A DNA stretch of 64,000 bases from Ferrimicrobium acidiphilum DSM 19497 (lineage in GTDB: Bacteria; Actinomycetota; Acidimicrobiia; Acidimicrobiales; Acidimicrobiaceae), in assembly GCF_000949255.1 (NCBI RefSeq), contig NZ_JXUW01000001.1, forward strand, positions 1 to 64,000, given 5' to 3'. The notes under the pieces are model-generated. The model saw only the letters and a list, made by a program, of their open reading frames with translations. It made no database searches and was not told where the DNA came from. Made by a program: the position numbers and the translations under genes. Below, piece after piece: positions 2,664-42,025 of this stretch. Numbering within the stretch: position 1 is the stretch's first letter; each line of letters starts with the position of its first letter.

Positions 2664-4262
2664 GTGTCAAAGGCTTACCTTAGGGAGTTGATCAGGCGTG
2701 ATCCGACTACGAGTTGGGATACTAGTCAACTATCTGATCATCAGCAGAAAAATCCAGATCCACTCCTATCGCCTGCAAGCTTGCTTTGGCCGACCTCTGA
2801 GAACTACCACGTCATTCCCTCTAACGTCTTGGCTGACCTTGCTCTCGACCGTATGTTCACATCGCTGGCTACGGCAAGGCTTGAATCATTCGACCTTTAC
2901 TCACTATGGACAACCATGCCGGTGGACGCGACCACCACCCGGTACCGTCAAGCCGTCGCCCGAGATCTTCTCGACGCCAAGGCGCGCGTACCGATCCTTA
3001 GCTTCATCGACGGCATCGAAAAAGTTGAGCAGTACCTACGAGCAGCTGCTGGAGCGCGCCAACCTAGCGGTGAAGAGCGGTGGCTCCTCGACGCAGTGCT
3101 AACGTACACGAAAACGATCAAGACCGTGAGCGAACAGATGGCGCTGGTGTCTTGGAGTTCCGAGGGATTGCAGACGTTTCAGGACGCGCTTACCGAACTC
3201 GAGAGCAGCGAACGATTCCTAGAACTCTCTCAATCATCTATACGTGTAGCATCTGAGCTTAGCCAAATTCGCTACAAGCTCATTTTGGAGGATAGTACAA
3301 TCACCGTCGATCGGAGTGAATCGACAGACCAGGATTATCGCGATCATCTCCAAGTCTTATTCGAGCGCTTCGGTGACATCGATATACAATCGCCGATTAT
3401 TGCTTCTTCTTATCGCTCTAGAACTCACATTGATGACCGGATTCTAACCATCCTTGCACGAATCTTTACGGAGGAATTCTCTGACTTGGCCGCATTTGCA
3501 CATGAGAATCACGCTTTCGTTGCAGCCTGGATTCCACGGCTCGAGCGCGAGCTCATCTACTACCTTGCATGGATTGAAGAGATTCTCGGCTTTGAGGCTA
3601 GAGGGTTAGCGTGGACCCTGCCGGTCTTGAACGATGGACCTGGCGTGCAGCATGCTGAGGCCCTGTATGATCTCGCTCTCGCTCATGATCTTCAACATGT
3701 ACCCACTCCACCGGTCACCAACCAATGGCACCTCGATGGCAACGAGTCGATCACCGTTGTCACTGGCCCCAACAACGGAGGCAAAACTACCTATGCTCGT
3801 TCCGTTGGTCAGCTCTACATCGTCGCCGCCCTCGGGCTCCCCGTGGGAGCATCAGACGCACAAATTACGCTTGCACCCTCAGTCACCACCATCTTCTCCG
3901 AACGCGAAGCAGCTGATCGTGCCACCGGGCGACTCGAGGATGAAGTCCTTAGAATACAGTCCTTCTTTAAGACAGCCGAGCCAGAGTCGTTCCTTATAGC
4001 AAATGAGATATTCAGTTCGACGAGTGTGAGCGATGCAATCGCTCTAGGCCGTCTCCTCATCGAACGGTGTCAGGATCGACAACTACGAGCTATCATCGTC
4101 ACCTTCGTCGACGAACTCGCCAAACCCACCCCCGGAGTGGTGTCGCTGGTTGGATCAAGTGACAGGGTTACCCATCAACGCAGTTACAAGTTTGAACGGA
4201 GACCACCGCAAGGTCGCGCCCAGGCACTCGAACTAGCGCTAGAGCACGGACTAATCTCATGA
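2664..4262 (+). CDS. MutS-like ATPase, first of a tandem pair
   Basis: A 532-residue protein with a C-terminal MutS-type ABC ATPase domain. Walker A is GPNNGGKT at residues 368-375. The Walker B region reads FLIANEIFSSTSVSDA, with Asn447-Glu448 where classical MutS has Asp-Glu; the NE form is, from memory, seen in a subgroup of MutS-related bacterial proteins outside the true mismatch-repair MutS. The N-terminal 330 residues look helical, like the core/lever region, and there is no mismatch-binding domain with the Phe-X-Glu motif and no Smr domain. GTG start with GAAGGGG 6 bases upstream. It overlaps the next gene by 4 bases (ATGA), so the two are probably co-translated and may form a heterodimer. 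Its role is unknown. Confidence 0.75.
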   Translation: MSKAYLRELIRRDPTTSWDTSQLSDHQQKNPDPLLSPASLLWPTSENYHVIPSNVLADLALDRMFTSLATARLESFDLYSLWTTMPVDATTTRYRQAVARDLLDAKARVPILSFIDGIEKVEQYLRAAAGARQPSGEERWLLDAVLTYTKTIKTVSEQMALVSWSSEGLQTFQDALTELESSERFLELSQSSIRVASELSQIRYKLILEDSTITVDRSESTDQDYRDHLQVLFERFGDIDIQSPIIASSYRSRTHIDDRILTILARIFTEEFSDLAAFAHENHAFVAAWIPRLERELIYYLAWIEEILGFEARGLAWTLPVLNDGPGVQHAEALYDLALAHDLQHVPTPPVTNQWHLDGNESITVVTGPNNGGKTTYARSVGQLYIVAALGLPVGASDAQITLAPSVTTIFSEREAADRATGRLEDEVLRIQSFFKTAEPESFLIANEIFSSTSVSDAIALGRLLIERCQDRQLRAIIVTFVDELAKPTPGVVSLVGSSDRVTHQRSYKFERRPPQGRAQALELALEHGLIS

Positions 4263-5734
4263 TCGGGGTTCATCTACTTTGGCCTCCTGGGTGTCCAGAC
4301 TCAAAGACCATCTTCACGGATGCGCGATCTCTAACTGATATTGGTATCGAGATGATAATCGACGCTATGGCAGATGGGGATCCAGACATAGCGTCAGTAG
4401 CCAATGACCTGTTTATCCACGCTCCCACGGACTCGACCGTAATTCGTTGGCGGCAAGAGGTCTTGATCGACGCCCTTGCTCATCCACAACTCATTCGCGA
4501 CCTTGACTCCATAGCGCGCCACAGCGCCGTACTAGAACGTCGAAGCTCTTATGCGACCCGACAACAGGCACCCTTTTCTCAACTGCTTCGCTCTCGCGAA
4601 CTCTTGAGTTTACTCATCGGTGATCTCGAGGCGCTTGCAAAGCGTGTTCGGGAGCCAGATAACGACGTCAGTTCGAAGGGACTCAAACTCCTGATCGCCA
4701 CGATCAACGACAACTTTAATGATGAATACCTACAATCACTCCAGGCAGAGCTTCAACTACTCCGGTTCGAAAATGGCATGGTTACTCGAGCTACCCTTGG
4801 CGCAGGGAACTTGACGAGCGATGAACTTATAGTTGAAAGTCCTTTCCAAGGGCGCGGGTGGAGAGACCGGCTGCATCTAGTGCTTGGCGATGACAATAGG
4901 ATCGAGATCGCTCCCCGTGATCAAGCGGGTGGTGAGACACTCCGCGAACTTCGGAACCTGGCCCTCAGTCAAATAGGCACCATAGTCGCTCACGGACTCG
5001 GCACAGTGATCAGCTTCTTCGTCACCCTACATCATGAGCTCGCCTGGCTCGTCGGCGCCATCAACCTACGGAGTCAATTTGAGCAGCTAGATTTACCCAT
5101 CTGCATGCCAGAACCAGCAGCTGATGGCTGGCATCTGGGCTTTCACGGCCTCTGTGAACCAACGCTCGGCTTACGCACTCGCGCACGGCCGATAACCAAC
5201 AACCTGGCGCTAGACGACAGCTCTCCGATCGTTCTGAGCGGAGCAAACTCCGGAGGCAAGACCACATGGCTCCAGAGCGTGGCACTCGGCATCTTGATGA
5301 TGCAGACGGGGCTCTTTGTCACGGCAGACGAATTCCGAGCAACCATCCGGACGAACCTGCGCACGTTCTTCCCAGACGACGAGGATCGTGAGCTTCAGCA
5401 TGGCAGACTCGACGATGAGCTCATACGACTGGCAGCCACAATAACAGAACTCCAAGAGGATGGGTTAGTCCTGCTAAACGAGCCATTGACTTCAACGAAC
5501 GAGATCGAGGCATCGGAGATAGCCACCGCTGTGTTCCGTGATCTCGACAAACGAGGTGTGACGGTTATCGTTGTGACTCACTACCCGACCCTGGCACGTG
5601 AACTTGCAACCAGCGGCTTGAGCCTCGAACCCGAAATATTGGGCGATGGGGTACGCAGCTATCGTATCGAGCCATCACCACCACCCAAAAACTCGTCAGC
5701 CATGGACATCTACCGTCGCCTTGGCGGTTGGTAA
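4259..5734 (+). CDS. MutS-like ATPase, second of a tandem pair
   Basis: A 491-residue paralogue of the preceding gene. Walker A is GANSGGKT at residues 328-335 and the Walker B segment is LVLLNEPLTSTNEIEA with Asn407-Glu408, again Asn for Asp. The signature-like stretch ELQHGRLDDELIRL and a following switch His in VIVVTHYPTLARE are visible. The N-terminal part is helical and lacks a mismatch-recognition domain. It begins within the last codons of the first gene (ATGA overlap). Because dimeric MutS ATPases form composite sites, two different subunits encoded together suggest a heterodimer. The pair lies between a transporter and a mobile element, which leaves a housekeeping, defence or stress role open. 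Confidence 0.75.
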   Translation: MIGVHLLWPPGCPDSKTIFTDARSLTDIGIEMIIDAMADGDPDIASVANDLFIHAPTDSTVIRWRQEVLIDALAHPQLIRDLDSIARHSAVLERRSSYATRQQAPFSQLLRSRELLSLLIGDLEALAKRVREPDNDVSSKGLKLLIATINDNFNDEYLQSLQAELQLLRFENGMVTRATLGAGNLTSDELIVESPFQGRGWRDRLHLVLGDDNRIEIAPRDQAGGETLRELRNLALSQIGTIVAHGLGTVISFFVTLHHELAWLVGAINLRSQFEQLDLPICMPEPAADGWHLGFHGLCEPTLGLRTRARPITNNLALDDSSPIVLSGANSGGKTTWLQSVALGILMMQTGLFVTADEFRATIRTNLRTFFPDDEDRELQHGRLDDELIRLAATITELQEDGLVLLNEPLTSTNEIEASEIATAVFRDLDKRGVTVIVVTHYPTLARELATSGLSLEPEILGDGVRSYRIEPSPPPKNSSAMDIYRRLGGW

Positions 5735-5758: not shown

Positions 5759-7531
5759 TCAACCTGTCCATCGATTGAGAGCTAAACCCATTGCCCTCCG
5801 CCCTACAGGCAGAGACGGAGGTACATCAGACCACATGTTCACAACCCGCTCCGAAATACATATACATCCATATGCACCTCTTTTGTCTTCGCTCTCCAGC
5901 CGCCTTTGAGTGTTCTGCCCTATCCACAGGGACAGAACTAGGGCGAGTCGATGGTTGACCACCTCCCACGTCCAACTTGGGTTGTCGTGGTATGCTTGGA
6001 GTCTCAGCCGTTGAGCGGTAGCAGCATCGTCTGTCGGGATTCCTCTGCTCTCCAGTCGGCGTAGGAACCTCTCCTCTAGGATCTTCTTCACTTCCCTATA
6101 GGGAGTGAACCGGCTGATCTGGCGATCTTTGATCCTGTTGAGTAGGTTCATGGCAGCTACGTGATCTACATCACCCTGCCAGTTACAATCCCAATAGGGA
6201 TTGCGACAGTGAAACACATCCCCGTGTCGGTTGTCATGATGGACATACCCACACCCTGGATCAGGACATGTTTGGCTGCTGTAGGCCGCGTTGACCGTTT
6301 TAATGCCGGAACCTCCGACATAGGCATGTACCGTAATGCGTTCTTGGTTCTCGTTCCTTGCCCATGATGAGCAGAGTCGAGAGATGTTCTTAGACCTGGC
6401 CTTACCTTGCAAGCGAGAGAGGTCTTCGATGATGATCTCTCTTGGCCGCTGTGATGGAAGTTGGGGGACTCGCTTCTTGGCTCTGGTTCTGTTCCCGTCT
6501 CCATAGACCACCTCCTTGATTGTGGCACCAGAGATCGTCTGTAGTTGTGCCTTTGTGCGCCGGAGTCGAGCCTGCTGCTTCTTTGTACCCAAGTTGTTGC
6601 GTGCGATGTGCTTGGTTCGCCTAGAGCCAGCATCTCTCTTTGATAGAGCGTGAAGTCTGTTCCTTGCTTTGCCGGTCTTGTTCCGGCGTTCAGTCATGGA
6701 TGTAAGCGCTCGGCCATACTCGTTGCCATGATGGACTCCCGAGCTATCAGTACAGACCTCGGTGATCCCCCAGTCAAGAGCCACGGCGGGGCCGGTGGCC
6801 CGGTCTTGGCGTGCAACGTCGTAGCTTACGTGGACGAAGGCTCGCTTGTGTTCTTCGTCTAGTACAACCCTGATATTGCCTGACACCTGAGAGATGCCAG
6901 ACAGCGGTAGTGAGATGCGCTTGTTGCGGGTTGAGCTAATGACTTTGACGTAGCGTCTGGTTTTGCCTGTTCGAGTCTCATTGTCGACCACCGAGTACAA
7001 GCTAGAGTCCAAAGACATAGAGCGAGACTTGACGACGGTTGGCCAGCTACTACCGAGCGCATCTCGAATAACACGGTGCAGGTACGAGGCTATCTTCGCT
7101 CTCGCGTCAGGAGGGATAGCCACCGTTGGAATCTCTGGCACGCCACCACCCATGATCTGCCCAATGGCCGAGTATCGGGCGAGACAGGCGTAGGCATAAT
7201 GCCTCTCGTTCTTGTCTGTGAATCGCCGCCATGTCTTTGCTTTGATGTCAGCACGGGCAAAACAGGACTCGATGTGGCGAATGCAGGTATCCACGGCATC
7301 AAAGGCGGCTTGGTCTATCAGATGAACGTTGATGCTCGTTGGGTATAGCCCTCGTGCCTTGGCATAGTCACGGAAGCTCTTGCTTCGATCTAGTAGTCCC
7401 CACAGGCTAGTCTGGCGCAGATGAGCCACAAAGACGCGCTTTGCATCGGTATAGCGCTTAATTACCGAGCACAGCTCGTCGTACTTGCCCTTGTTGAGTG
7501 GCAACGTGGCTAGGCGTACCGTGCGCTTCAT
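5759..7531 (-). CDS. tnpB: IS607-type TnpB
   Basis: A full-length 590-residue TnpB. The three RuvC acidic residues are visible: Asp253 in ALDWGI, Glu369 in EIIIEDL and Asp456 in QGDVDHVAAMN. A zinc ribbon (CPDPGC, then CRN and CNW) lies between the last two. About 130 residues follow the last catalytic residue, including TPYREVKKILEERF, as in actinobacterial IS607 TnpBs. It is transcribed in the same direction as, and just downstream of, a broken tnpA recombinase, the usual IS607 order. TnpB acts as an RNA-guided DNA nuclease that helps retain the element; the guide RNA would be expected past or over the 3' end near 5759. The gene has no visible lesion although its partner does. Confidence 0.88.
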   Translation of the reverse strand: MKRTVRLATLPLNKGKYDELCSVIKRYTDAKRVFVAHLRQTSLWGLLDRSKSFRDYAKARGLYPTSINVHLIDQAAFDAVDTCIRHIESCFARADIKAKTWRRFTDKNERHYAYACLARYSAIGQIMGGGVPEIPTVAIPPDARAKIASYLHRVIRDALGSSWPTVVKSRSMSLDSSLYSVVDNETRTGKTRRYVKVISSTRNKRISLPLSGISQVSGNIRVVLDEEHKRAFVHVSYDVARQDRATGPAVALDWGITEVCTDSSGVHHGNEYGRALTSMTERRNKTGKARNRLHALSKRDAGSRRTKHIARNNLGTKKQQARLRRTKAQLQTISGATIKEVVYGDGNRTRAKKRVPQLPSQRPREIIIEDLSRLQGKARSKNISRLCSSWARNENQERITVHAYVGGSGIKTVNAAYSSQTCPDPGCGYVHHDNRHGDVFHCRNPYWDCNWQGDVDHVAAMNLLNRIKDRQISRFTPYREVKKILEERFLRRLESRGIPTDDAATAQRLRLQAYHDNPSWTWEVVNHRLALVLSLWIGQNTQRRLESEDKRGAYGCICISERVVNMWSDVPPSLPVGRRAMGLALNRWTG

Positions 7532-7557
7532 GGGAATCTAACCATAGGATGAGGCTT

Positions 7558-7597
7558 GGACATCGAAGGCTCTGGCATCGAAGGCTCGGACATCGGG
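7558..7597. repeat. Short tandem repeat between tnpA and tnpB
   Basis: A 15-base unit GGACATCGAAGGCTC is present about 2.7 times (7558-7572, 7573-7587 with one change, then a partial copy) in the interval between the tnpA end and the tnpB start. It probably arose by slippage; a regulatory role is not indicated. Confidence 0.6.
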
Positions 7598-8216
7598 TCA
7601 TGGACTTACCTCTTTGGCTATCTCTTGAAGCCGTTCCATAACCTGTCTGTTCTTATCGCTTCTGGAGCCATGTAGCCTGGCCGAGAATACGGTCACAATC
7701 TCGATAACATCATTTGCAAGATCCTCTTCAAAGGTCGAGTCCTCACTAGCGTTGATAATGATTACCTCAGTGCTCACACAGGGAGAACACCAGTTACGAT
7801 CCAAACCGGAGCAGTCTGTCCTTATGACTGAGCACCAGTCGTCCAACCTCGCCAGAACAGATCCTCGATACGAGCGCCTTTAGTCCTCGTTTGTGATGGT
7901 TGAGTCCTGACCCTAGATCAGAGATGACCTCGTAGGTCCACCCGTTCACAGCACAGTAGCTCTCCAAGAGAGCTACCTGGCGCACTAGGTCGTCTTTTTG
8001 ACCGTTGGTTGATACGCGAGCATAAGCAATGGTGGTCCTGGTAGATGGAGCCTTATGAGGCGCAATGGCACGAAGTTTAGCCAGGTCATAACGCCTTCTA
8101 CCTCCCTGAGTGTGCACAGGAGGATCAATACGTCCCTCTGTTTCCCATCTCCGTAGCGTCATGGGGTGAACTTAGAGTTCCTGTGCTGCTACCACAATGG
8201 GGACCAACCTAGTCAT
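7598..8216 (-). pseudogene. tnpA: IS607-family TnpA serine recombinase, inactivated
   Basis: Reads as an IS607 TnpA: a MerR-type DNA-binding segment (MTLRRWETEGRIDPP), then a small serine recombinase domain (IAYARVSTNGQKDDL, with the catalytic Ser in ARVS) and the ending EIVTVFSARLHGSRS. The plausible start is the ATG at 8216 (MTRLVPIVVAAQEL). Three lesions break it: an in-frame TAA at 8174-8172, an in-frame TAA at 7796-7794 after LLRFGS, and a frameshift near 7775, where a few bases of the expected EHFGTEV stretch are missing. The intact reading therefore has three pieces. Mobility would depend on a recombinase supplied by another copy. Confidence 0.82.
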
Positions 8217-8298: not shown

Positions 8299-8976
8299 AT
8301 GACCACCCTGCGAGAGCGGATCGTTGAGCCCATAACGACCAGCTCTCGCACCACGATCGTCTGGGTGCCGCAACCAGCCCAGTTCCACAGGTATGCATGG
8401 CACCCACATTCGCCATCAGCAACTACGTCGGCGTCTACTCATCGTTCCCGCACACGACCTATCCCGGGCGACTCTTCGGCTAGATGGCGATCCGCTCACC
8501 CACAACTGGCGCCATCTGATTATCGGCTGCTAGGCACACAGTTCGACGATCGTCGTCGGGTTAACGCATGGGTTAATCCGCACGAGGCGTTCTCAATGCT
8601 GGAACCAGCGCCGTCTACCAGAATCCAACTCCGGCCGCGTATCTTATCGATAATGACCCTTGGAATCTAGCCCTTAATCTAGCGATAGAACTAAATGGTT
8701 CGATCAACTCGTACCCACCAGCCCTTCAATGGTGCCGATGCCTGCGTCGGTGATCCATTCGCCTCTGGCACTATCTCTGGCACCCAACCCGACCAATTTG
8801 GCCCTCTCGTCGAGCTGCCGAGCACAGCCACCAGACCACTCACACTCGCAGATGGGTCCGAGTACGGGTTTTTAGAAGATGGTGACAGCATCACAATCCG
8901 AGCAAGCGCTCCATCGATGAACGGAGGTCAGCAACATCTTGGTGAGGTGCGCGCTACTACCACAGGCTCGAACTAG
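8299..8976 (+). pseudogene. Decayed fumarylacetoacetase
   Basis: Fumarylacetoacetase (final step of tyrosine/homogentisate breakdown) is recognisable in fragments spread over several frames: a WVPQPAQF start, FAISNYVGVYSS, then PLTHNWRHLIIGC, a stop, and AHSSTIVVG (matching the NWRHLPIGYHGR-STIVVSGT region of the family), and a good C-terminal piece from 8695 with GDPFASGTISG, FGPLVELPS and FLEDGDSITIR. At least one in-frame stop and two or more frameshifts separate these. Spacing between fragments fits a shortened family member. The gene is clearly dead; an open frame from 8197 to 8670 across it is only partly in the right phase. Confidence 0.78.
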
Positions 8977-39386: not shown

Positions 39387-40582
39387 CCATCACCTCTGGC
39401 CTCCTAAGGCAACATCTGATCGACCCCGAGGTCTGTATTCGCTGCAATACCTGCGAAGAGACCTGTCCTATCGATGCGATCACTCACAACGACGACAACT
39501 ACGTCGTTGATCCCAACATCTGCGCATCCTGCGGTGACTGTTTGGGACCGTGCCCAACGGGTGCCATTGATTCATGGCGGATCGTAACCACTCCTCACCC
39601 AATCGAAGCGCAGTTGGGTTGGGATCTGCTGCCCGACGACGCCGAGGAGGTGGTTGACCAAGAGCACGAGTTCTCCTTAACCGACAACGACGTGCAGGCA
39701 CTCCTCGATGTCGCTCATCAATCCGCACCTAGAGCCGTCGCCCCGGCGAGCGCAAGTGCACCACACCTTAACATCGCCACTCGGCGCTCACCGATGACCG
39801 CCACCGTGACTGGGAACTACCGAATCACGGCGGCTAACACCGAGTCCGACGTGCATCATATAGTTCTCGATCTCGGAGCTCAGGCCTTCCCAATCCTCGA
39901 GGGGCAGAGCGTGGGGGTCATCCCACCTGCATCCACCGATACCTCACAGAACTCGGTCATTCGACTGTATTCTGTCTGTTCACCACGTGATGGTGAACGC
40001 CCAGCCCACAACAATCTTGCTCTCACCGTCAAGAGGGTGGCAGACAATGGGCATGGTCAGCCGGGACTGGTCTCAAACTACCTCTGTGATCTCAGCAAAG
40101 GCGATGAGGTCGTGTTGGTAGGACCCTTTGGCGACTCCTTCTTGATGCCCACCGACCCAGCAAGCAATCTAATCATGATCTGCACGGGGACTGGCTCCGC
40201 ACCCTTCCGCGCTATGACTGAATACCACCGCCGACACCTTCCAGCTGGACCCGGCAGACTAATGCTCTTCTTTGGTGCTCGCACTCGCGCCGAACTACCC
40301 TATTTTGGACCTCTCATGCAGCTAAAACCCTCCCTCATCGACATCGAGCTATGCCTTTCTCGAGAGCCCGAGCTACCTAGTCGCCACGTTCAAGATGGTC
40401 TTCGTGATCGCATTGAAGATCTATGCGAACTCCTGAATCAAGACCAAACCTATCTTTATCTGTGCGGGGTTAAGGGGATGGAGAACTCGGTTCGCTCGGT
40501 GCTAGCTGAAACGATTGAAGACTGGGGCGCACGCGAACTGAGGCTCACGGCAGAGGGTCGTCTGCACATCGAGACCTATTAG
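39383..40582 (+). CDS. boxA: Benzoyl-CoA 2,3-epoxidase, reductase subunit BoxA
   Basis: Passes electrons from NADPH to BoxB. A 399-residue chain with an N-terminal dicluster ferredoxin (CIRCNTCEETCP and CASCGDCLGPCP) and, after an acidic linker at about 85-135, a ferredoxin-NADP+ reductase-type FAD/NADPH module with RLYSVCSP, MICTGTGSAPFRAM and LYLCGVKGME. All eight Cys of the two [4Fe-4S] clusters are present. ATGA overlap with boxB. No boxD (aldehyde dehydrogenase) follows; the next gene is convergent. Confidence 0.95.
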   Translation: MTITSGLLRQHLIDPEVCIRCNTCEETCPIDAITHNDDNYVVDPNICASCGDCLGPCPTGAIDSWRIVTTPHPIEAQLGWDLLPDDAEEVVDQEHEFSLTDNDVQALLDVAHQSAPRAVAPASASAPHLNIATRRSPMTATVTGNYRITAANTESDVHHIVLDLGAQAFPILEGQSVGVIPPASTDTSQNSVIRLYSVCSPRDGERPAHNNLALTVKRVADNGHGQPGLVSNYLCDLSKGDEVVLVGPFGDSFLMPTDPASNLIMICTGTGSAPFRAMTEYHRRHLPAGPGRLMLFFGARTRAELPYFGPLMQLKPSLIDIELCLSREPELPSRHVQDGLRDRIEDLCELLNQDQTYLYLCGVKGMENSVRSVLAETIEDWGARELRLTAEGRLHIETY

Positions 40583-40648
40583 TTGCCACCGGATCAAGGA
40601 GACTACTAGATCATCGCGAACAGTGTGGAGCGACTTGTTCATGCCAGG

Positions 40649-40665
40649 CCATGTTCGGAACATGG
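40649..40665. terminator. Inverted repeat between boxA and the DAHP synthase gene
   Basis: CCATGTTC and GAACATGG flank one G, giving a stem with a short loop in the convergent gap. It could serve as a shared terminator, though no T-tract is seen on either strand. Confidence 0.35.
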
Positions 40666-40681
40666 TCTCCGTCAGCCGACC

Positions 40682-42025
40682 TCAGCGAATCAGAAGCTCT
40701 GCGACTCGGTATGCAAGATCGAGGGATTGGCGTGCATTCAACCGCGGGTCACAGATGGTGTCGTAAGCGCGGGAAAGCTCCTCCTCCAGCACCTCTTCTC
40801 CACCGCCTAGACACTCGGTGACATCCTGGCCGGTTAGTTCTATATGAATCCCTCCTGGCCAGGTGCCAAGGCGCCGGTGCACCTCAAAAAAACCAGAGAT
40901 CTCATCCATGATGTCTTCAAAGTCGCGTGTCTTGTACCCAGCCTCGGACAGGAAGGTATTCCCATGCATGGGGTCACAGAGCCAGACAACGGGATGGCCC
41001 GCATCCCTGACAGCGGTGACCAAATCACCCAGCTTGTCCCGAACCGCACCGCGTCCCATCCGAGCCACCAGCATCAACCTGCCTGGTTCCCGATCTGGAT
41101 CCAGCTCCCTACACACGTCGAGTAGATCGCTAATGCCCATCGAAGGCCCAACCTTGACTCCAATAGGATTGGCTACGCCACTCGCGAACCGCACATGGGC
41201 ACCTTTCGGATCACGAGTCCGATCGCCAATCCAGAGTTGATGAGCGGAGAGGTCGTAGAAACGTTGTGACGCCGGATCCAATCGGGTTAGAGCTGCCTCA
41301 TAGCCAAGCAACAACGCTTCATGCGAGGTCCAGAGCGTGATCTGGTGCAGAACCTCCTCCTTAGAAAGATCGATACCGCAAGCGGCCATAAAGTGTAGGG
41401 CGCGCTCTATCTCCGCCGCTATGCTCTCGTAACGTTCGCCCTCCGGCGAGGATGCAACAAAATCCTGATTCCAGCTATGCGCGCGAGAGAGGTCAGAAAA
41501 TCCACCTTCAGTCAGCGCCTTAACCGTAGAAACAGTGGCGCGCGAGAGGTCGTAAGCGGTTAACATACGCTGCGGATCGGGACGACGGGCCTCGAGGGTT
41601 GGTCTATCGTCATGGACGATATGACCTCGAAAGACCGGTATCTGCACTCCGTGATGGACTTCGGTCTCCGAGGATCTCGGTTTTGCGTACTGTCCAGCGA
41701 TGCGACCGATCTTAACGACCGACACACCAGAAGAGTAGGTGAGCACCACCGCCATCTGAAGAATGACACGTAGCTTGGCCCGAATGGTGGCTGCCGAATG
41801 ATCATTAAATGACTCAGCACAGTCACCTGCCTGAAGCACAAACGCTTTACCATGGGCGGCTCTCGCGAGTCCACGCTTGAGCGAGTCGATCTCTCGGGGA
41901 AAAACCAAGGGGGCGCGCAAGCTTAGCTCTCGTCGAACAGCATCAAGCTCGTCCCGACTGTGCCATGTTGGTTGCTGAGCTATCGGGTAGTTCTGCCAAT
42001 CCCACGGATCCCACTGCAGCGACAT
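40682..42025 (-). CDS. aroG: Class II 3-deoxy-7-phosphoheptulonate (DAHP) synthase
   Basis: First step of aromatic amino acid biosynthesis: condenses phosphoenolpyruvate and erythrose 4-phosphate. 447 residues, class II (plant/mycobacterial type). Family marks: WDPWDWQNYPIAQQP at the N-terminus, AFVLQAGDCAESF with the metal-binding Cys, VVKIGRIAGQYAKPRS, HTWNQDFV-like AHSWNQDFV, LWIGDRTRD, GVANPIGVKVGP and WLCDPMHGNT. ATG start with AGGAGG 6 bases upstream. Alone in this direction; runs towards boxA. Confidence 0.94.
   Translation of the reverse strand: MSLQWDPWDWQNYPIAQQPTWHSRDELDAVRRELSLRAPLVFPREIDSLKRGLARAAHGKAFVLQAGDCAESFNDHSAATIRAKLRVILQMAVVLTYSSGVSVVKIGRIAGQYAKPRSSETEVHHGVQIPVFRGHIVHDDRPTLEARRPDPQRMLTAYDLSRATVSTVKALTEGGFSDLSRAHSWNQDFVASSPEGERYESIAAEIERALHFMAACGIDLSKEEVLHQITLWTSHEALLLGYEAALTRLDPASQRFYDLSAHQLWIGDRTRDPKGAHVRFASGVANPIGVKVGPSMGISDLLDVCRELDPDREPGRLMLVARMGRGAVRDKLGDLVTAVRDAGHPVVWLCDPMHGNTFLSEAGYKTRDFEDIMDEISGFFEVHRRLGTWPGGIHIELTGQDVTECLGGGEEVLEEELSRAYDTICDPRLNARQSLDLAYRVAELLIR

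Follow-up and report, generated by a model that had tools for sequence, protein, structure and literature searches.

What do two adjacent genes for MutS-type ATPases do in a bacterium in whose draft genome no MutL was found? The question is raised by positions 2664-5734 of a 64,000-nucleotide (nt) stretch of Ferrimicrobium acidiphilum DSM 19497 (contig NZ_JXUW01000001.1 of the draft assembly GCF_000949255.1, completeness 97.87%), the whole of which is referred to as the window, and in which the two genes, here named A and B, follow one another directly. The answer proposed is that the pair most likely helps cells to cope with fluoride rather than to repair mismatches, because a fluoride riboswitch lies upstream and because similar pairs, frequently within clusters of fluoride-resistance genes, occur in both bacteria and archaea. 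In its fuller form, to which a probability of roughly one half is given, the locus would be a fluoride-response operon with a heterodimeric ATPase that remodels a fluoride-blocked target.

Two coupled ATPase genes behind a fluoride riboswitch

The elements of the locus are the following:

2579-2636, + strand: fluoride riboswitch aptamer (crcB RNA motif, RF01734), full length, model positions 1-64 (Rfam)
2650-2658, + strand: purine-rich, Shine-Dalgarno-like stretch of gene A, putative expression platform (sequence)
2664-4262, + strand: gene A, MutS-type ATPase of 532 amino acids (aa), GTG start, core/lever/clamp plus ATPase (open reading frame, Pfam, predicted model)
3765-3791, + strand: Walker A of gene A, GPNNGGKTT (sequence, alignment)
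4002-4007, + strand: Walker B Asn-Glu of gene A, N447-E448 (42/42 aligned rows)
4104-4106, + strand: switch position of gene A, Phe481 in place of His (alignment)
4259-4262, + strand: ATGA, overlap of the gene A stop and the gene B start (sequence)
4259-5734, + strand: gene B, MutS-type ATPase of 491 aa, ATG start, core/lever/clamp plus ATPase (open reading frame, Pfam, predicted model)
5240-5266, + strand: Walker A of gene B, GANSGGKTT (sequence, alignment)
5477-5482, + strand: Walker B Asn-Glu of gene B, N407-E408 (41/41 aligned rows)
5579-5581, + strand: switch His441 of gene B (41/41 aligned rows)

The aptamer scores 35.6 bits against a gathering cut-off of 34 (E 3.6e-6 for the whole window) and ends 27 nt ahead of the start codon of gene A, which by its 5′ leader belongs to the RF01734 regulon; an earlier, sequence-only reading of this DNA had been silent on it. 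In this riboswitch class the binding of Mg-bound fluoride raises expression (excerpts of the 2024 fluoride-resistance review PMC11139923), and genes A and B are very probably induced by fluoride, as judged from the leader. The 3′ strand of the aptamer (ACUCCU, 2623-2628) is able to pair with 2653-2658 (AGGGGU), part of the Shine-Dalgarno stretch; the minimum-energy fold contains this pairing, and by eye comparable ones are recognizable in the leaders of relatives, their weight being limited by the ability of CUCC to pair with any Shine-Dalgarno sequence. In stability, the folded leader does not exceed shuffled sequences (z 0.36). Exactly one other RF01734 match exists in the source genome (L155, G000:C32:3544-3605, within the stretch G000:C32:500-9000), and it heads an operon; the proteins encoded there share 60-82% identity with those of a hydrogenase-4/formate-hydrogenlyase-like cluster in the locus L029. 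One protein of the latter matches Pfam NADHdh, and the name of the cluster is our reading; formate hydrogenlyase is a known fluoride-riboswitch target (excerpts of PMC11139923 and PMC2864571). Contig C3 of the source genome carries the two CrcB genes above the cut-off and the CLC gene (G000:C3:98396-99458, 40469-41533); no fluoride riboswitch was found on that contig.

Both open reading frames were found where the sequence-only reading had placed them. They match MutS_V in Pfam (48.0 bits for A and 46.5 for B, cut-off 30.2), which together with the MutS fold of the predicted models makes both proteins members of the MutS ATPase superfamily. The ATGA overlap and the Asn-Glu dipeptide at Walker B, likewise reported before, are present, the latter being invariant in the homologue alignments with the window proteins included. 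At the switch position, His occupies all 41 aligned rows of B, and in A the 42 rows divide into 33 with Phe and nine with His. The switch His of MutS and ABC ATPases acts close to the γ-phosphate. Since it is kept in B and lost in A, the two ATP sites should differ in working.

Single-chain AlphaFold models, built from alignments of 42 (A) and 41 (B) sequences, have mean predicted local distance difference test values of 84.8 and 86.1, the first ~28 residues of A being of low confidence. Both resemble MutS, MSH2, MSH3 and MutS2 over nearly their full length: with VIA-align 2, residues 46-532 of A align with 8rz8_A 297-838 (Z 29.9, 440 aligned residues, root-mean-square deviation 6.6) and residues 15-491 of B with 8omo_A 297-838 (Z 32.8, 419 aligned, deviation 8.0). 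Structural rows lying within Z 1 of each other count as ties, and the comparison does not separate MutS, MSH and MutS2. According to the models, both proteins contain a MutS core, a lever, a clamp and the ATPase. No Pfam match to a mismatch-binding domain, connector or Smr was obtained in A or B at E up to 1, as the sequence-only reading had held for the mismatch-binding and Smr domains; Pfam likewise misses the lever and clamp, which are seen in the models only, and its silence on domains I and II is weak evidence by itself. Their absence is concluded from the chain that precedes the core, which in most structural alignments measures ~46 residues in A and 12-20 in B and is too short to hold them, some structural rows placing the low-confidence first 45 residues of A earlier.

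In the source genome MutL (PF01119) has no match and MutS_V no match besides A and B, the draft being 97.87% complete and the MutL and MutS_V controls positive in 11/14 genomes. For this reason canonical mismatch repair is very unlikely for the pair. A and B do not belong to MutS1, for want of domains I and II and of MutL, nor to MutS2, for want of Smr, and their TIGR01069 (mutS2) scores are 45.4 and 56.1 bits against a cut-off of 400. A fluoride-tolerant substitute for the housekeeping MutS or MutS2 would have a parallel in fluoride islands, which carry extra copies of inhibited enzymes (eno, gpmA and ppa; excerpts of PMC5533749), but is very improbable given that no MutS, MutS2 or MutL was found in the draft genome and that the pair is devoid of mismatch and Smr domains. 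Because there is neither MutL nor a nuclease, A and B most likely constitute a lone ATP-driven clamp or remodeller, one that seems better suited to unlocking a target than to repairing DNA.

Inheritance of the pair and its fluoride context

Distant loci were collected by a one-genome-per-species scan with an A-type pattern, and the best 80 of at least 99 confirmed loci were analysed. A and B are both present in 69 of them, in two more the contig breaks off within A, and nine hold a single, longer related protein (eight in one clade, L127 apart; the locus L119 runs to its contig end). Homologues found with this A-type pattern are mostly adjacent pairs and rarely single (9/80), in keeping with the sequence-only reading. 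The start/stop overlap of four nucleotides is kept in 47 of the 60 distant pairs measurable by simple open-reading-frame calls. A quick-method tree of 169 ATPase domains, uncertain in its deep forks, places A (71 rows, support 97) and B (71 rows, support 98) in clades of their own, apart from the MutS1/MutS2 clade and from the single proteins. Pairwise distances within A and within B correlate (r 0.954 over 36 pairs, a value reached in 0/2000 label permutations), which is partly a matter of shared ancestry. Two different MutS subunits are encoded together, and the dedicated heterodimer of the sequence-only reading is well supported by co-occurrence, overlap, separate clades and co-divergence, physical pairing being inferred from them; A and B probably form an obligate heterodimer. 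The single MutS-type ATPases (L118-L120, L122-L127) measure ~550-600 aa, carry Asn-Glu in eight cases and are perhaps homodimeric cousins of the pair.

Hosts of the pair include Bacillota, Chloroflexota, Actinomycetota, Pseudomonadota, Spirochaetota, Deinococcota, Bacteroidota, Thermoplasmatota and Woesearchaeota. In the class of the source organism the pair occurs in 6/198 genomes, the source genome included, with the genes adjacent in all six, and B matches 48 plasmid records, none at >60% identity. This patchiness and the plasmid records would suit a selfish or anti-phage module riding in accessory DNA, but such a role is exceedingly improbable in view of the recurrent fluoride riboswitch control, the want of a supported PADLOC match (best E-values 0.0025 for A and 0.02 for B, P-loop stretches only) and the few phage records matched by B (7 of 50,697, one over most of the protein). 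Of the roles that the sequence-only reading had left open, namely DNA-structure sensing, stress or defence, defence finds no support in PADLOC, and stress is favoured and, for one branch of the pair, narrowed to fluoride by riboswitch and island contexts.

Within the genus, an aptamer precedes A in 7/7 genomes examined, five of them at the Rfam gathering level; the remaining two were matched only by R1 (E 1.2e-12 and 3.6e-11), a riboswitch model of our own with six base pairs and 17 seeds. Several of these seeds are loci counted later, and the independent riboswitch evidence is that from Rfam. An R1 hit (E up to 0.01) lies at most 450 nt before A in 26/62 distant loci, the 62 being those of 70 pair loci with at least 300 nt upstream; 0.54 would be expected if the other R1 hits of each locus were placed at random, and five of the 26 were R1 seeds. 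No R1 hit was found in the single-protein loci (0/9). Fifteen distant loci picked by small size contained nine Rfam riboswitches, five directly before A (L056, L060, L061, L079, L106), and ten loci picked after R1 hits (seven distant, three from the class) gave a Rfam gathering match before A in eight cases, including all seven distant ones. In the class survey of 198 genomes, the riboswitch directly precedes A in 4/6 genomes with the pair, and any riboswitch is found in 22/192 of the others (p 0.003; 3/5 and p 0.015 without the source genome). The locus L054 (Candidatus Formimonas warabiya), with four Rfam-level fluoride riboswitches within 21 kb and one of them directly before the pair, is likely a fluoride island.

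The residue at the switch position of A, assigned by alignment, divides the pairs into two branches. A riboswitch precedes A in 25/39 Phe-type loci versus 0/21 His-type loci (L078 and L106 were left unassigned, and L072, missed by the R1 rule through a failed estimate of its start codon, was counted as positive because Rfam places a riboswitch ahead of its A gene); p-values for this comparison overstate independence because the two branches are also clades. His-type A proteins, from Lachnospiraceae, other Clostridia and Cohnella, form one clade in the ATPase tree. Phe for His in the first subunit is a sequence mark of the fluoride-linked branch. The Asn-Glu dipeptide was also considered as a fluoride adaptation and rejected, since it is present in the His-type branch and in most single-gene proteins as well.

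Eleven of the 48 plasmid records were inspected, ten of them annotated, and A and B are both found in 10/11. The plasmid loci are in part near copies (the two from Rhodococcus; those from Klebsiella, Citrobacter and E. coli), with proteins shared between the two Rhodococcus stretches and between the Klebsiella and Citrobacter stretches. Named fluoride genes, that is crcB, a CLC-family channel, enolase (eno), phosphoglycerate mutase or pyrophosphatase, are close by in 6/10 annotated stretches (Klebsiella, Citrobacter, two Burkholderia, two Rhodococcus). The Mycobacterium branderi, Alicyclobacillus, Rubrobacter and Tsukamurella stretches hold no fluoride gene by name; the first three of these hold Rfam fluoride riboswitches, two of which directly precede A. 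Over the eight plasmid stretches scanned, a Rfam riboswitch directly precedes A in five (L150, L151, L162, L163, L165). In the stretch examined of p027_SK3a, a plasmid of E. coli from waste water, three fluoride riboswitches are annotated by RefSeq, one heading an array antiporter-universal stress protein-MutS-MutS, and only that one of 5426 complete E. coli genomes has a near-identical copy of this pair. Among 133 proteins encoded up to three genes to either side of 27 riboswitch loci (open reading frames called by length only), the neighbours include MFS transporters (9), Usp (4), CrcB (3), DUF190 (3), histidine phosphatase (3), E1-E2 ATPase (3) and enolase (1).

Proposed role of the pair

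In the mechanism proposed, fluoride entering the cell would bind the crcB RNA aptamer and thereby switch on the coupled genes A and B, presumably by freeing the Shine-Dalgarno stretch from the 3′ strand of the aptamer for translation. The products should assemble as an A-B heterodimer that is predicted to carry no mismatch-binding, connector, Smr or nuclease parts and to be asymmetric in its switch residues. This dimer might then free a fluoride-blocked complex, for example a phosphoryl-transfer enzyme that a Mg-fluoride mimic of phosphate holds locked. Among the metal-dependent enzymes that fluoride inhibits are enolase, pyrophosphatase and kinases (excerpts of PMC11139923), and these are plausible clients of the pair. 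That the pair acts on a protein or ribonucleoprotein target rather than on DNA is put forward tentatively, at somewhat less than even odds. More specifically, a heterodimer with one degenerate and one normal site could be a fluoride-switched reactivase that uses ATP to pry open fluoride-locked enzymes or ribonucleoproteins, a proposal that is unlikely as it stands and that is suggested by KamC, a MutS-like ATPase of similar size named an enzyme reactivase in NCBIfam. If the pair does rescue fluoride-blocked targets, the MutS fold would have gained a new function, and export and enzyme replacement would be joined by a further resistance mechanism, useful in microbes that form or cleave carbon-fluorine bonds. 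The small plasmid-borne operons allow the role of the pair to be tested directly.

Several observations weigh against tying the pair to fluoride in this way. By the R1 rule, 36/62 distant loci have no riboswitch detected before A, 14 of them Phe-type. The His-type branch shows no fluoride link in any of its 21 loci, and no Rfam riboswitch was found in nine His-type loci (142,841 bases). When up to two genes per side were scanned at 33 of 35 loci without a riboswitch (21 His-type, 12 Phe-type; 126 proteins), CrcB, Usp, DUF190 and enolase were not among the 25 commonest neighbour families. The pair on the Tsukamurella plasmid has no fluoride context, its stretch containing neither a named fluoride gene nor a Rfam riboswitch, and one Rhodococcus plasmid (L161) yielded only B. 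As the His-type branch shows no fluoride link and no fluoride gene is among the commonest neighbour families of loci without a riboswitch, the basic activity of the pair is not specific to fluoride; it is older or wider, with one branch apparently tied to fluoride. The fold of both models, moreover, resembles a DNA clamp and would fit a role on DNA equally well.

This last point leads to the principal alternative, a fluoride-induced DNA clamp that, as a prokaryotic analogue of MSH4-MSH5, would slide on the branched or damaged DNA to which fluoride and acid stress give rise. It is possible, though somewhat unlikely. The nearly full-length alignment of the models with the core, lever, clamp and ATPase of MutS, MSH2 and MSH3 speaks for it, as do a DNA-damaging stress suggested by Weinberg et al. 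(excerpts of PMC2864571) and the clamp hairpin of B, which in homologues averages +5.5 net charges per 100 aa; the hairpins of the window proteins themselves, however, are acidic. The parts before the ATPase are not basic either (net charge per 100 aa -3.4 in A and -0.9 in B, as against -1.4 in MutS1 and 0.0 in MutS2), and the charges taken together give no clear preference. The genome has no MutL, no DNA-repair family is prominent among the neighbours scanned, and the named fluoride-island genes serve mostly ion transport and metabolism. A second alternative, a MutS2-like factor for ribosomes stalled by fluoride-blocked translational GTPases, draws on the structural similarity of A (Z 26.6) and B (Z 28.2) to collided-ribosome-bound Bacillus subtilis MutS2 (7qv3) and on the MutS2 core (7vuf) as best PDB sequence match of both proteins. 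MutS and MSH chains match equally well, however, Smr is unmatched, and no ribosome-rescue family appears among the top 25 neighbour families of either scan, which renders this alternative improbable.

Flanking DNA and comparison with known systems

As the sequence-only reading had described, the pair sits between a transporter and a transposon. The flanking features are the following:

1046-2284: MFS transporter gene, upstream of the pair (Pfam/NCBIfam)
5759-7531, - strand: IS607-type element with TnpB, downstream of the pair (Pfam/NCBIfam)
7794-8162: TnpA piece of the IS607-type element

One MFS family recurs in nine pair loci or neighbourhoods (L029:11940-13160, L034, L037, L069, L071, L072, L076, L094, L096) and could be a fluoride-linked transporter; the MFS gene of the window did not match this family. 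The TnpA frame spans only model positions 13-135 of 187, its end may continue in another frame (7598-7846), and the gene may be broken. In the 88%-identical relative G006 (L023), the site of the IS607-type element (5759-8162) is occupied by genes that cluster with same-genus genes for a FAD monooxygenase, a metallo-hydrolase and a homogentisate-dioxygenase-like protein; the short open reading frame 8695-8976 clusters with a same-genus fumarylacetoacetase and looks like a remnant. Among the relatives fetched, homogentisate-type catabolic genes stand beside the pair only within the same genus. The C-terminal part of another TnpB lies at the contig start (1-600). A link to the nearby cobalamin genes was rejected, as other genes intervene in same-genus relatives and other genera have different neighbours.

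Among known MutS-family proteins, MutS2 resembles A and B in possessing core, lever, clamp and ATPase without domains I and II. It differs in that Smr is not matched in A or B and in that MutS2 and MutS1 form one clade apart from both. Asp-Glu at Walker B in the MutS1 and MutS2 rows, which were picked by those motifs, contrasts with Asn-Glu in A and B. KamC (lysine 5,6-aminomutase reactivase ATPase, NF052383) is similar in size and in its MutS-type ATPase and is the best NCBIfam match of B. Membership of A and B in this family was rejected, since the scores (46 bits for A and 78.6 for B) are far below the cut-off of 300 and only the ATPase part is aligned (for B, model positions 306-433 of 508); KamD (PF09043) was not found in the source genome, in a search whose KamD control was positive nowhere. 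Two different MutS subunits with asymmetric sites are also a feature of MSH4-MSH5 and other eukaryotic MutS heterodimers, likened here by description only. MSH4-MSH5 has no mismatch domain, and eukaryotic MutS heterodimers work with MutL homologues, whereas no MutL was found here.

Among fluoride systems, the island of Enterobacter cloacae FRM (PMC5533749) contains crcB, eno, gpmA, uspA and ppaC together with a riboswitch, and genes of these types also lie beside the pair on plasmids of enterobacteria; the word MutS is absent from the main text of that paper and from that of the 2024 review (PMC11139923). In a search that left most subscription literature outside, no paper was found that describes such a pair by connecting MutS or mismatch repair to fluoride riboswitches or to fluoride resistance. 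Weinberg et al. 2010 (excerpts of PMC2864571), however, list DNA repair (mutS) among the genes preceded by the crcB motif, an association that the papers searched were not found to explain, and the statement of the sequence-only reading that no function was known was in this respect too strong. The same RNA family there stands ahead of a MutS-family gene, and these mutS genes are probably the same as those of the pair; the excerpts name only DNA repair (mutS), not two coupled, different subunits without a mismatch domain. The link between riboswitch and mutS is already known in outline, and the two-subunit nature, the asymmetry, the absent mismatch pathway and the two branches appear to be new within the literature searched. 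Genes labelled mutS behind a fluoride riboswitch, as seen here, appear to encode a two-subunit ATPase of its own kind rather than a component of mismatch repair.

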